DNA of 64,000 bases from Gemmataceae bacterium (GTDB taxonomy: Bacteria; Planctomycetota; Planctomycetia; Gemmatales; Gemmataceae): the NCBI GenBank assembly GCA_003136315.1, contig PLDW01000088.1, forward strand, positions 1-64,000. The letters run 5' to 3'. A program made the position numbers and the translations under genes. Below the pieces are notes generated by a model. It worked only from the letters and a program-made list of their open reading frames with translations. It did not search any database and had not been told where the DNA came from. This document shows positions 18,629-54,400 of the stretch, piece after piece (the stretch's first letter is position 1; every line of letters begins with the position of its first letter).

Positions 18629-18735
18629 AGATGTCCATTTCGTAAATCACTGGGCAGTCATACTTCCTGTCCTACCAAGAGCTTACGCATAATGGCTCCG
18701 GTAAGGCTGCCCAAGGACTTATGAAATGGACATCT
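18629..18735. mobile_element. MITE-like element with 29-bp terminal inverted repeats
   Basis: AGATGTCCATTTCGTAAATCAC.. (18629-18657) and its imperfect complement at 18707-18735 pair at 25 of 29 positions around a 49-nt centre. The size and termini fit a small non-autonomous insertion sequence. I see no target-site duplication. It lies just upstream of the retron RNA but does not supply its a1/a2 stem. Confidence 0.5.
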
Positions 18736-18834
18736 AGTTTGTGCAGTTGGAAGCAAGGAAAGGCCCTGGCCTTAGCTACGGGATGCACCCCACCGACCTT
18801 GACACCCAGTCCTCCGTCGTGGAGGATTCCTCCC

Positions 18835-19009
18835 ACCGCGGGGCGGTTCCAAGCACGGCAAACGATCTGGTCGCAAGAGCGGGTCGGATGTCGCTCCGGG
18901 GTTACCCCGGGGGCCTTGCACCACCTGAGTCAGGATGCGCGCGACGGTCCGGGCGCTACCACGCCCATTTTCGTCGCGCTGGACGGGACTCGTTGGACCG
19001 CCCCGTGGT
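18835..19009 (+). ncRNA. Retron msr-msd RNA
   Basis: The ends form a 17-bp a1/a2 stem with one G-U and one bulge: ACCGCGGGGCGGTTCCAA (18835-18852) pairs with TTGGACCGCCCCGTGGT (18993-19009). The base right after a1 is the G of AAGC (18853), where the 2'-5' branch is expected. The msr part has two hairpins: GATCTG/CGGGTC (18864-18885) and CCGGGG-TTA-CCCCGG (18896-18910). The msd part folds into one long hairpin: GAGTC/GACTC (18927-18931 with 18987-18991), then GCGCGACG/CGTCGCGC (18939-18946 with 18972-18979), capped by GGGCG-CTACCA-CGCCC. The reverse transcriptase starts 39 nt downstream, the standard retron order. This is read from sequence by eye, without a folding program. Confidence 0.82.
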
Positions 19010-19047
19010 ACTCTTCACGCCCTCCGCGTGGACGGAATGGGGTGATC

Positions 19048-20184
19048 ATGTCGAAGTTCGACACATTCCGATTTTGCTCGAACCTGGCGGGTGCCCTGCT
19101 GGCAACTCGTTGGATTGAAGATGATCTACGCATCGTCATCCGGAAAATCGCTGTTGATCCACCTATCCGTGTCCCCGGCCTCATCTCACGCATTCTGAAG
19201 CAGTTCCCCACGCGGCCAGAGTTCATGCGATTCGTGATGTACCTTCTCATTGACGACCCTGGCATGAATCGGGCTTTGAACCGTCTGGCCGGGCGGCCGA
19301 ATCCCCCTTACCGTCGCCGCTCAAGACCAAAGCGCCCCCTTGTCATGGGCCAGCCACCTCCTCGACTAGCTCCGCTTGCGATCCCTCCAATCGCATCGGA
19401 AACGGCACTCGCCAACTGGCTTGGGATCTCCGACGGCAAACTTCGTTGGTACGCCGACCTCACTGGTCGGAACCGGAAGCACCCGGCCGGGCCGCTTCGC
19501 CCCTATGGCTACCGCTGGGTGCCGAGACTCCGTGGCCGACCCCGGCTTGTGGAGATTCCGAACGTCGGACTGAAAAGGATCCAGCGGAAGATCCTCGATG
19601 GGCTTTTGAACCACATCCCAATCCATCCGGCCGCGCATGGGTTCTGCCCCGGTCGGTCAATTGTCACAAATGCTGCACCACACTGCGGCAAACAGGTCGT
19701 GCTTCGATTCGATCTGGCCGACTTCTTCCCCAGCGTGCCCGCGGCCCGCATTTTCCGGACGTTCCGAACGGTCGGATATCCGGAAGCCGTCGCACGGTTG
19801 CTCACCGGACTGTGTACGACCCAACTTCCTCGCGACATCTGGGATAACCGCCCGAACCCACCTGTCGACGGGTCCGATCACGCAACCTGGCAACGATTTG
19901 CAGCTCCCCATCTGCCGCAAGGTGCACCGACTTCACCAGCGTTGGCGAACCTTGCGGCCCACCGGCTCGACCGCCGACTCAACCGGCTGGCAGCTCTCGT
20001 CGGAGCCGACTACACCCGCTATGCCGACGACCTCACCTTCTCCGGTGAGGGTGAGTTTGCGCGTCGGACCAAGCGGTTCGCTTTGCTGGTTGCTCGCATC
20101 GTGGGAGACGAGGAGTTCACCCTGAACTTCCGCAAAACGCGGATGATGCGATGCAGCAGTCGGCAACACGTCACGGGGTGGTAG
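19048..20184 (+). CDS. Retron-type reverse transcriptase, interrupted near the C-terminus
   Basis: An N-terminal helical extension of about 100 residues and a PIASETALANWLGIS segment precede the RT fold. RT motifs follow in order: RWVPRLRGRPRLVEIPNVGLKRIQRKIL, HPAAHGFCPGRS, NAAPH (retron region X, NAxxH), LRFDLADFFPSV with catalytic Asp, LPQGAPTSPALANLAA, RYADDLTFSG with the catalytic Asp pair, and finally VTG (retron region Y). The start ATG has GGGGTG 6 nt upstream; the longer ORF from 18721 runs through the msr-msd RNA and is not coding. Just after VTG the frame stops at TGG TAG, whereas the +1 frame continues VVVNARTNVPR, the normal thumb domain. A missing G in the run at 20176-20179 explains this. 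The enzyme as read here would lack its thumb. Confidence 0.85.
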   Translation: MSKFDTFRFCSNLAGALLATRWIEDDLRIVIRKIAVDPPIRVPGLISRILKQFPTRPEFMRFVMYLLIDDPGMNRALNRLAGRPNPPYRRRSRPKRPLVMGQPPPRLAPLAIPPIASETALANWLGISDGKLRWYADLTGRNRKHPAGPLRPYGYRWVPRLRGRPRLVEIPNVGLKRIQRKILDGLLNHIPIHPAAHGFCPGRSIVTNAAPHCGKQVVLRFDLADFFPSVPAARIFRTFRTVGYPEAVARLLTGLCTTQLPRDIWDNRPNPPVDGSDHATWQRFAAPHLPQGAPTSPALANLAAHRLDRRLNRLAALVGADYTRYADDLTFSGEGEFARRTKRFALLVARIVGDEEFTLNFRKTRMMRCSSRQHVTGW

Positions 20185-20393
20185 TGAACGCCCGGACGAA
20201 TGTCCCTCGCGCGACGTTCGACCGATTAAAAGCGGTACTGACCAACTGTGCCCGGCACGGTCCAGGGGATCAGAACCGCGACAACCACCCCGACTTCCGG
20301 GCTCACCTCACTGGGCGGGTGGCTCACGTCGCGTAGGTCAACCCGGCCCGAGGCCGGAAGTTGTGGGCTATCCTTGATCGGATCGCCTGGGCC
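20178..20393 (+). pseudogene. Detached C-terminal thumb of the retron RT
   Basis: This frame carries on from the RT: VVVNARTNVPRATFDRLKAVLTNCARHG...FRAHLTGRVAHVA, then TAG, then VNPARGRKLWAILDRIAWA. Retron RTs normally read ...HVAWVNPARG here, so TAG replaces a TGG Trp codon. Together with the frameshift, the gene carries two separate lesions, which points to decay rather than one sequencing error. Confidence 0.75.
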
Positions 20394-20470
20394 AAACCCC
20401 GCAAGGGTACACCCAGTGATCCAGCGGGTACAATCCCCCCATCCACATCGACCGCCGAAGGACATCGTGA

Positions 20471-21820
20471 ATGGCTGCCACCTCCTCCGATCTGATCGTA
20501 TCGGTTTCCGGCATCCGCGGGATCGTCGGGCAAGGCTTAACCGCCGAGTCCACAACCCGTTTCGCTGCGGCCTTTGGTGCCCACGCTGGCGGGGGGAAGA
20601 TTCTTGTCTCTCGAGACGGGCGACCCAGTGGAGAGATGCTCCGGCATGCCGTCATTGCAGGGTTGCTCAGCGTGGGGTGTACGGTCGAGGACATCGGGAT
20701 CGCTCCGACCCCAACCTGTGGCTTCGCCGTCCGTTTCCTGAGCGCGGCCGGGGCAATCCAGATCACCGCAAGCCACAACCCTGCTCCGTGGAATGGGTTG
20801 AAGATGTTCGGCCCGGATGGAGCGGTACTGAACGCCGAGAACGGTGCGATCGTGAGGGGGTTGTACGAATCGGGTGACTTCCCCCGGGCCGCCTGGGACC
20901 AGACCGGCACTGCACGGGTGCCGCCGGACATGCAGGAGGAGCACACCCGGGTCGCGCTCGATCAGATCAGCGTGGCCCGAATTGCGTCGCAGCAGTTCCG
21001 GGTCTTCCTGGATGCGAACGGAGGGGCCGGGGGACCACTCGGCTCCAAATTACTCGCCGATCTTGGGTGTGCGGTCGTGCAATACGAGTGCGAACCCACC
21101 GGCATATTCACTCACGAGCCAGAACCGACCCCCGCTCACCTCGTGGATGTGGCCCCGTGGGTAAAGCAAAGTGAATCGGCGGTCGGGTTTGTCCTCGATC
21201 CGGACGCCGACCGGCTTGCGCTCATCGACGAGACCGGAACATGCGTGAGCGAGGAAGTGACCCTCGCCCTGGCGGTGAAGTACCGCTTGCGACAGGACCA
21301 GGGGCCGGTGGTGATCAACATGTCCACCTCGCGGATGGTGGACGATGTGGCCCAGGCCGCGGGATGTGCCTGCTTCCGATCAGCGGTTGGGGAAGCGAAC
21401 GTGGTTGGGCTGATGCGAGAGGTGGGGGCGGTGGTCGGCGGGGAAGGGAATGGCGGGGTGATTGATCCTCGAGTCGGGTGGGTCCGTGACCCGTTCATCG
21501 GGATGGCCCTGATTCTCAGCCTGATGGCCGAGGAGGGGAAACCGTTCAGCCAGCTTGTGGCTGAACTCCCCCGGTACGCAATGCTCAAGACGAAGTACAC
21601 ACTCCCCCGCGAGCGACTGCCCGACGCCCTCGACGCGGTGGAACGCCGCTGGCCGGACGCCCGAGTGAACCGGGACGATGGTCTGCGTCTGGACGGGTCC
21701 GACTGGTGGCTCCACGTCCGCGGCAGCAACACCGAACCCGTTGTCCGGGTGATCGCGGAGGCCCCCACCGATGAGCAAGTCCGTGGCCTCTGCGATGAGG
21801 CCGCCGGGGTGATCGGATGA
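20471..21820 (+). CDS. glmM: Phosphoglucosamine mutase / phosphomannomutase family enzyme
   Basis: The 449-aa enzyme carries all four alpha-D-phosphohexomutase signatures: the SGIRGIVG entry loop, TASHNP with the phosphorylated active-site Ser, the magnesium loop DPDADR, the sugar-binding GEGNGGVI and the C-terminal phosphate loop RGSNTEPVVR. It moves phosphate between C1 and C6 of hexose phosphates. Whether glucosamine (GlmM, for cell-wall precursor) or mannose/glucose is the substrate cannot be settled from motifs; GEGNGG differs from the usual GEqSGH of GlmM. The ATG has GAAGGA 9 nt upstream. It immediately follows the retron remnant and looks complete. Confidence 0.8.
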   Translation: MAATSSDLIVSVSGIRGIVGQGLTAESTTRFAAAFGAHAGGGKILVSRDGRPSGEMLRHAVIAGLLSVGCTVEDIGIAPTPTCGFAVRFLSAAGAIQITASHNPAPWNGLKMFGPDGAVLNAENGAIVRGLYESGDFPRAAWDQTGTARVPPDMQEEHTRVALDQISVARIASQQFRVFLDANGGAGGPLGSKLLADLGCAVVQYECEPTGIFTHEPEPTPAHLVDVAPWVKQSESAVGFVLDPDADRLALIDETGTCVSEEVTLALAVKYRLRQDQGPVVINMSTSRMVDDVAQAAGCACFRSAVGEANVVGLMREVGAVVGGEGNGGVIDPRVGWVRDPFIGMALILSLMAEEGKPFSQLVAELPRYAMLKTKYTLPRERLPDALDAVERRWPDARVNRDDGLRLDGSDWWLHVRGSNTEPVVRVIAEAPTDEQVRGLCDEAAGVIG

Positions 21821-29984: not shown

Positions 29985-30240
29985 CGTCTTGTATAACCGC
30001 TTCGCGGTAAAAAGCTGGGGCAGGCAACCAGCTACCCAGGGTGCGCGAAGCGCGACCCTGGGCTTTCTTGTGCAACCTCTTCGAGGTAGCCGAGGGCAGG
30101 TGATCGATTAACCAGAGTGCGCGAACGCAACCCTGGGTTTTGTTATGTAGCCACTTCGAGGTAATAAAGAGCAGACAACCCTCTACCCAGGGTGCGCGAA
30201 ACGCGACCCTGGGCTTTCTTGTGCAACCTCTTCGAGGTAA
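29985..30240. repeat. REP repeat F, right flank, three units
   Basis: CTTGTATAACCGCTTCGCGGT mirrors the left flank. Three related units follow, each with ...CCCAGGGTGCGCGAA..CGCGACCCTGGG... and (C)CTCTTCGAGGTA, near 30037-30091, 30112-30163 and 30186-30240. The middle one has diverged most. The outer ends, TTACCTCGAAGAGG and CCTCTTCGAGGTAA, are perfect complements, so the whole 29413-30240 element has inverted termini. Confidence 0.85.
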
Positions 30241-30315
30241 GACAACCGACTGACTCGCCTTCACAGGGAATCACGGCGTTTCTATCGCGTCAGTGACGCC
30301 AATCTGCCGCCCCCC

Positions 30316-51404: not shown

Positions 51405-54400
51405 GTGGCCAAACACACGTACTGGTTCTCACAAGACCCGTTCTCCGAGGTTCAGAACCGGACCGAATTACTGCTGGAGGATCTGGAGAACCGGCTGCCG
51501 CCGGCCGCTCATACACTCGTCGCGGCCAGCACGGCAGCAAACACTCTGACCTTGGGAGCCTTGAACACCGCGGAAGCATCTGGCGAGATTGCCACGGCCG
51601 ACGAGCAAGATCTGTACCGGATCCAACTGGGCATCGGTGATCGGTTAACTGTGGCCGTCACCGCTCAGTTGGCCGGAAGCGGACTCGAACCCGTTCTCAG
51701 AGTGTTCTCGGAATACGGCCAGGAGTTGGCCATTGATAATCAGGAGGGAGGCGACCCTCAGCTTACCTTCCAGGCGAATGCTCCCGGTGACTACTTCGTC
51801 GGCGTCTCATCTGCTGGAAACAGTCAGTACAATCCCACAGTTTCTGATAGCGGTAGCACGGGGACGACCACCGGTACCTACACACTCGACCTGGCCGTCA
51901 AGAAGAATCAGCCATTACAGTCCGACCTGGCCGGTTCCTCGTTCCGACTGGCCCAGACCACGGCTGCATGGGGAGACACGGTTCTGGCCTCGTTCAACAT
52001 CGAGAACCGGGGAGGAGCGAACGCCGGTGCTTTCAGCGTGCAGTTGTACGTCTCACCGGACCCGAACATCAATCCGTCGAACTCGACACCCCTGTTGGCG
52101 ACCCCCCTCGCGATGGATGGTCTGACCGCCGGGTCGAAATGGTCGGTGGAAGGACTGGCACTCACATTGCCCACGGGCCTGGGCACACTCAAATCCGGCC
52201 CTGTTTACATCGGACTGCGCATTACGCTCACCAACCCAGGCCAGGACAGCGGAACCTCGGACAAGGGCGGCGTTCATCGTGGCGAGGACTTCGAGTCCTT
52301 GACGATCGTGACACCCGTCTCCACGAATGTGACCGATCTGGCTCAGGCCGACCCGGACTTGAACATCCGCCTCAACGGGACATTGGGCGTCAATCAGTCT
52401 GAGCGATACCAGTTCACAATCAGCCAGACTCTGGGAGCCGGGCAGTTCACCGCGACGGCTCAGCCTACCTCGAACAACTCGTTTTTGCCTCAACTGGCAC
52501 TCTACGGGGGCGCGGAAGGGCAGACGTTGTTGGTCCAAACTCAGGGCGAGATCGATAACCCCAGTGCGACTCTCTCCCAGTACATTCAACCCGGGACGTA
52601 CTTCCTGAGCGTGAGCAGCGACCAGACGGGGAGCTATCAGCTCACGACCACGATGACGGCAGCGAGTTCGGTGTTGCAGACCGTCCCAACTGGTCCCGGC
52701 CCGTCTGCCATCGCGGTGGGAGACATCAACAACGATGGCGACCTCGACCTCGTGGTCGCCGACAGCACCTTTGGCAAGGGCAACACACTCAGCATCCTGA
52801 TGGGCAACGGCAATGGCACCTTCCTGCCGACACAGACCGTGACCGTCGGCCGAGACCCTGTCGCAGTGGCCATCGCTGATCTCAACGGCGACGGCAAGCC
52901 CGACCTCGTCGTGGCAAACGAAGAGGATAACACTGTCGGGGTGTTGCTGGGCAACGGCAATGGCACGTTCCAGCCCATGCAAACGTATGCCGTGGGCCAC
53001 CAACCGAGCAGTGTGGCGGTGGCCGACCTCACTGGCAATGGCATTCTCGACATTGTGGTCGTCAACACCGCTGATGACACTGTTGGAGTGCTGCTGGGTA
53101 ATGGCAACGGCACGTTCCAACCCATGCGAACGTATGCCGTGGGCCACCAACCGAGCAGTGTGGCGGTGGCCGACCTCAACGGCGATGGTATCCCTGACAT
53201 CGTGGTCGCCAACACCGGCTCCAATACTGTTGGGGTTCTGCTGGGCGAGGGTGATGGCACTTTCGGCTCCATGCATTCCTTCCCTGTGGGCGAGAAACCG
53301 AGCAGTGTGGCGGTGGCCGACGTCACTGGCAATGGCATCCTCGACATCGTTGTCGCCAACTCCGGCGATAATACCGTTGGGGTGCTTTTGGGAAAAGGAG
53401 ACGGCACCTTCGCGATGCAATCGCAGTATTCCGTGGGAACGCAACCGCTCTCCCTGGTGGTGGCGGACATCAACGACGATGGTAAGCCCGATATTGTGGT
53501 CAGCAATAACAATAATACAGTCAGCTATTTGTTTGGCAATGGCGATGGTACCTTCGCAACACAACAGACCTCTCAATTACCGCAAAATTCTTCCGCGGTG
53601 GTGGTGGCGGACATCAATGGAGATGGCAACCCGGACCTCATCGCCACCGACTCCGGTTCTGCGGGTCAGCCTGGCTCCGGCATCAGTGTCCTGCTGGGGA
53701 ACGGGGACGGCTCATTCCAGAGTCAACCTGTTCTGCCGGTTGGAGTTGGGCCAGTCTCGCTGGCAGTCGGAGACTTCAACGGCGATGGCCGTCCCGATGT
53801 CGCCGTGGCCAGTGTGGGCAGTCAAGAGGTGACGGTGGAACTGGGCAATGGTGATGGCACTTTCTCGCCACAGACACCGATACACGTCGGGAATCGACCG
53901 ATGGCTGTTGCGACAGCCGACCTGAACAACGACGGCCGTGCCGACCTCGTCGTTGCCAATTTTGATGACAATACCGTCGGTGTCATGCTTGGCAATGGGG
54001 ATGGCACCTTCCGGCCCGAGGTGACATACCCGGTCGGGCTGGGGCCTTGCTCACTGGTGCTGGCCGATCTCACTGGCGACGGCATCGACGACATCGTGGT
54101 CGCTAACAATGGCGACGGCACGGTGGGAGTCCTCCTGGGCAATGGTGATGGCACCTTCCAGCCCATGCGAGCCTACACTGTCGGGGCTGGCAATCCGACC
54201 GATCAGGCGGGGCTACTTCCTGGCCCTGGCCCGATTAGTGTGGCGGTGGCGGATGTGAATGGCGACGGGATACCGGACATCCTCGTTGCCAACGATCAGG
54301 ATAGCTCGGTGGATGTCCTACTGGGAGAAGGTCATGGCACATTCCAGCCCCAGCAAATCATCCCACTGCTCGATCAGCCCAGCGCGTTGGCGGTCGCCGA

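Follow-up and report, generated by a model that had tools for sequence, protein, structure and literature searches.

An untyped stand-alone retron of a Gemmataceae bacterium and the break in its reverse transcriptase gene

In Retron-Eco1 (Ec86) the ncRNA with its a1/a2 pairing precedes the reverse transcriptase (RT) gene. The system has an effector gene, and its RT is devoid of an N-terminal domain of the kind described below. Myxobacterial retrons have been reported to carry an N-terminal extension of the RT and to be inherited vertically (PMC6868368), and Retron-Mxa1 (Mx162) and Sa163, which are covered by the PADLOC model RT_XIII, are the representatives considered here. PADLOC also contains the models RT_other and RT_outgroup for retron RTs, which are silent on the ncRNA, the neighbours and the function. 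In addition, stand-alone retrons are present in Pyxidicoccus caerfyrddinensis (locus L090), Burkholderia, Acidobacteriaceae and Nocardioides, which have the ncRNA directly upstream of an open RT frame of about 430-450 aa. Among the papers searched, none contained both "retron" and "Gemmata".

A stretch of 64,000 nucleotides from a Gemmataceae bacterium, called the window in the following, contains a locus with the same order of ncRNA and RT and the same a1/a2 pairing as Ec86. It had been described from the letters alone as a retron with a complete msr-msd RNA that recalls the Mx162 type. The present analysis led to a different picture. With a probability of roughly 0.85 the locus is a vertically inherited chromosomal retron of an untyped clade, composed only of ncRNA and RT, which was recently inactivated in this genome. 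It belongs to the same clade as the stand-alone retrons mentioned above and shares with them the kind of N-terminal domain, but it differs in its genomic neighbours and in its truncated RT. The best PADLOC models for this clade are RT_other and RT_outgroup; both are PADLOC names, and the place of the clade in the retron classification is known through these names alone.

The RNA part of the locus is located on the forward strand. The minimum free energy (MFE) fold of a 251-nt segment had an energy of -135.6 kcal/mol (z = -4.8), which was not reached by any of 200 dinucleotide shuffles. It matched the anatomy that the first-pass annotation had proposed for positions 18835-19009, i.e., an a1/a2 stem, a branch site, two msr hairpins and a nested msd hairpin. 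In this fold the a1/a2 stem contains 15 uninterrupted pairs between a1 (18835-18849) and a2 (18995-19009). The a1 strand leads into the motif CCAAGC (18849-18854), the AG of which does not vary among the 17 aligned loci; by analogy to known retrons (PMC6868368) G18853 is the predicted branching guanosine. The first msr hairpin (18856-18893) varies in sequence among the relatives, yet a hairpin is found at this place in most single folds. The second msr hairpin (18894-18912, CTCCGGGGTTACCCCGGGG) is the most conserved element, with 99.3% of the alignment cells paired and two-sided changes in six of its eight pairs. The msd hairpin (18939-18979) is built of an outer stem (18939-18947/18971-18979) and an inner stem (18951-18955/18962-18966) in the MFE fold.

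Upstream of the RNA a putative promoter could be recognized (18799-18827), consisting of TTGACA (18799-18804), a spacer of 17 nt and the weak -10 motif GAGGAT (18822-18827), which would place the transcription start near a1. Nearly all Gemmataceae copies have a TTGAC box at a distance of about 35 nt upstream of a1. The box also precedes 26 of 66 copies of other groups, compared to an expectation of 1.1. This recurrence ahead of a1 points to a promoter with a transcript that may start at a1. Just upstream of the putative promoter lies a MITE-like element (18629-18737, about 109 bp) with the inverted ends AGATGTCCATTTC ... GAAATGGACATCT, which has about a dozen copies in the genome, most of them 81-88% identical. 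Elsewhere in the window, about three copies of a 76-bp unit form a tandem array that overlaps a frame with low GC3 (30020-30268), and 147-bp tandem repeats are found within a frame of 2859 codons (52926-53437).

The conservation of the RNA was analyzed with an alignment of 17 loci of the Gemmataceae family that was blind to structure. In 24 of the 35 consensus pairs both partners had changed while the pairing was kept. Of the cells, 93.2% were paired, compared to 80.8% in the shuffled control and 39-47% with a slid partner. The consensus helix 1, which represents the a1/a2 stem, had two-sided changes in eight of nine pairs, so that the pairing is conserved in related genomes by compensatory changes. 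The helices 4 and 5, which form the msd hairpin, were paired in 95% of the cells and showed covariation in eight of 13 pairs. A covariance model trained on the same 17 loci matched the window at 18834-19014 with 156 bits and found the ncRNA in 20 of 95 genomes of the family. A retron-type RT was matched in 53 of these 95 genomes, with up to seven matches in one genome of a relative. Besides the window, the 95 genomes contain about 18 loci with an RT of the same kind, nearly all of which are accompanied by the upstream ncRNA.

The covariance model was also applied to the loci of 80 related RTs from Planctomycetes, Acidobacteria, Burkholderia and relatives, myxobacteria and Actinobacteria. It detected the ncRNA directly upstream of about 75 of them. 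All of these cross-phylum loci except L083, which is a record of a training locus, had been absent from the training set (79 of 80), and therefore the search represents an independent test of the model. A model built from the relatives thus not only works within the family, but generalizes to other phyla. It did not find an ncRNA beside the four further RTs that are encoded in the genome of the window. Rfam yielded no match above the gathering score in the window and none with E<=10 for the ncRNA region. At one locus (L176, G006:C17) the ncRNA was found about 0.9 kb past the 3′-end of the RT gene and on the opposite strand, rather than upstream.

The RT gene starts with an ATG at 19048, 39 nt downstream of a2, and its frame extends to 20184 on the forward strand (378 aa). 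An N-terminal extension covers residues 1 to about 110 and is followed by fingers and palm up to the VTG motif. The motifs NAxxH (as NAAPH), YADD and VTG are all present, and both they and the start position had been read correctly before. The protein is a member of the Pfam family RVT_1. In PADLOC it scored best with RT_other (1e-113), followed by RT_outgroup, while an intact relative reached 1e-156; these models span nearly the full length of the protein and include a part of the N-terminal extension. The closest solved structure, both by sequence and by fold, is the Ec86 RT. An assignment to the RTs of group II introns or of diversity-generating retroelements (DGRs) was not supported, because the intron maturase model TIGR04416 gave only 50 bits at a cut-off of 300, and because retron structures ranked first in the fold search, with intron and DGR relatives far lower. 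The RT thus scored best with retron models and far above those of group II introns. The locus combines an msr-msd RNA with a1/a2 pairing beside the RT gene with an RT of the retron clade that has NAxxH, YADD and VTG. Its identity as a retron is supported by the covariance model, the compensatory changes in a1/a2 and the RT scores.

The intact orthologues were 42-70% identical to one another's reference in the alignment. About 80 N-terminal residues were predicted to form a confident domain of five helices, with a mean pLDDT of about 87-98 per block. Although the identity is low, conservation of this helical domain extends across phyla. It did not match any Pfam family or any fold in the PDB (best E 4.8).

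The presence of a long N-terminal extension and the absence of an effector gene from the flanks, both of which had been noted in the first-pass annotation and were borne out, had also given rise to the proposal that the retron is of the myxobacterial Mx162 type. Both traits are indeed common to the two systems, and Pyxidicoccus has a member of the window clade as well (L090). In light of the published traits (PMC6868368) the analogy holds for the N-terminal extension and for vertical inheritance. It does not extend to the RT clade, and the N-terminal regions are unrelated. The sequence which we take to be the Mx162 RT was checked by its match of 86% to the Pyxidicoccus RT L163. It is 53% identical to an RT encoded at a separate locus of the same genome (L004, G000:C218), which is best matched by PADLOC RT_XIII and represents the Mx162 orthologue of this organism. 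In contrast, L006, an intact relative of the window RT, aligned to Mx162 with only 36% identity and only in the RT domain, and the window clade prefers the models RT_other and RT_outgroup. An assignment to the Mx162 type is hence hardly credible, and the placement in the RT_other/RT_outgroup clade was retained. Altogether, four further retron-type RTs were found in the genome: L002 (G000:C371:9242), L003 (C371:30460), L004 (C218:9246) and L005 (C7:33225), of which the first three scored best with RT_XIII and L005 with RT_III-A.

That the retron is complete could not be upheld for this genome. The RT frame ends with RQHVTGW* at 20184, directly after the VTG motif. A codon alignment with L006, which stems from the same genus, revealed a deletion of one base at 20172-20178, where the window reads GTCA-CGGGG and L006 reads GTCACCGGCG. 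The region after VTG continues in the -1 frame as an out-of-frame remnant of the thumb (20178-20399, forward strand; VVVNARTNVPRATFDRLKAVLTNCARHGPG and so on), which additionally contains a TAG at 20334-20336. The end coordinate of 20393 in the first-pass annotation took in this remnant, but left the break unmentioned. The tails are intact in the 15 other complete orthologues that were aligned; in L006 the frame is open and the thumb region begins at about residue 377. Due to the frameshift and the TAG the RT of the window has lost its thumb. This weakens the case for a functional retron, but not that for a retron ancestry.

Downstream of the break most of the differences to L006 still fall on third codon positions (14/7/31), and residues specific for the window are only mildly in excess (27 to 16), which is too weak to assume accelerated decay of the RT. 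This pattern means either that the loss happened recently or that the draft is erroneous at both lesions. The latter possibility, in which the organism has an intact retron and the frameshift and the TAG arose by sequencing or assembly, would fit to the position of the deletion next to a run of G, to a draft of 524 contigs and to an RT sequence with little sign of long decay. However, two independent lesions of different kinds, an indel and a stop, would have to be located in one gene, while the neighbouring glmM is intact, and so are other long frames in the window with as many as 2859 codons. Furthermore, independent decay has occurred in other members of the family (G023, G091 and G093). 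The two different lesions and the intact glmM favour a real loss, and errors in the draft were judged to be an unlikely explanation. The copy in the window is thus likely to be a recently inactivated retron, i.e., a recent pseudogene.

The RT gene is also broken in G023. In G093 a retron has been reduced by deletion (L175, G093:C80:18497-18672, minus strand), and all that is left of the RT is a C-terminal scrap directly at the ncRNA. In G091 (L009, G091:C1141) the RT is intact and the msd hairpin is missing from the ncRNA, which could be due to a deletion or to a hairpin that collapsed during assembly.

The recent inactivation would be only apparent if programmed -1 frameshifting and read-through still allowed the RT to be expressed, or if the ncRNA were served in trans by another RT. 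The GGG at the break could re-pair in the -1 frame, and four other retron-type RTs would be available in the genome. On the other hand, every other aligned orthologue is in frame through the break point, and the TAG would still follow downstream. The other RTs are members of different clades, and the ncRNA model found nothing beside them. Such a rescue appears very improbable, and loss of the RT is the preferred reading.

The gene downstream of the retron and outside of it is glmM, encoding phosphoglucosamine mutase (20471-21820, forward strand; TIGR03990 above cut-off). In 11 of 19 Gemmataceae loci it lies directly behind the retron in the same orientation. In several other loci, including that of the closest relative, it is not adjacent although the available sequence would be long enough to reveal it. 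The distances of the RT cores were correlated with those of GlmM (r = 0.82), and none of 5000 permutations reached this value. This co-divergence indicates that the retron was inherited vertically in the Gemmataceae, with repeated decay and losses. Convincing remnants of the ncRNA were not found upstream of glmM in relatives that lack the retron, and glmM was the only widely recurrent neighbour among the Gemmataceae loci. Clustering of the neighbouring ORFs of the 80 cross-phylum loci did not uncover a conserved effector neighbour, but only lineage-specific neighbours, e.g., transporters in Burkholderia. An effector gene or a fused effector domain, as expected for tripartite retron defence, was thus not found. 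A search of plasmid and phage collections revealed no place covering 80% of the RT protein in either of them.

Judged from these sequence features, the intact relatives most likely follow the standard route of msDNA synthesis. Their ncRNA would have a promoter of its own and would fold through the a1/a2 pairing, and cDNA synthesis would be primed from the 2′-OH of the guanosine in the AAGC motif that follows a1, while the RT thumb would hold the near-invariant hairpin CCGGGGTTACCCCGG. The product would be a branched msDNA, the DNA part of which is predicted to be a hairpin of about 65-75 nt. In the genome analyzed here the RNA is intact and the thumb has been lost via the frameshift and the nonsense codon, so that this copy most likely makes no msDNA and does nothing at present. 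For the intact members, the part of the missing effector may be played by the N-terminal domain, which is the most plausible candidate, albeit with low confidence. It is tempting to speculate that the clade represents a domesticated retron with a role other than phage defence mediated by an effector, in which the ncRNA and the RT are passed on vertically at a single chromosomal site beside glmM and the helical N-terminal domain, which has no known fold, replaces the effector and links msDNA to a cellular task, but this idea is rather doubtful.

Taken together, a well-supported msr-msd RNA can now also be assigned to the Planctomycetes, and the covariance model unites RNAs of at least five phyla into one family, which is not contained in Rfam. 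The copy in the window is a caution, because its RNA looks perfect and its enzyme is broken. The Gemmataceae contain a lineage of retrons without an effector that is inherited vertically and has been lost repeatedly, and thus the role of an effector-less retron should be testable in the intact relatives.
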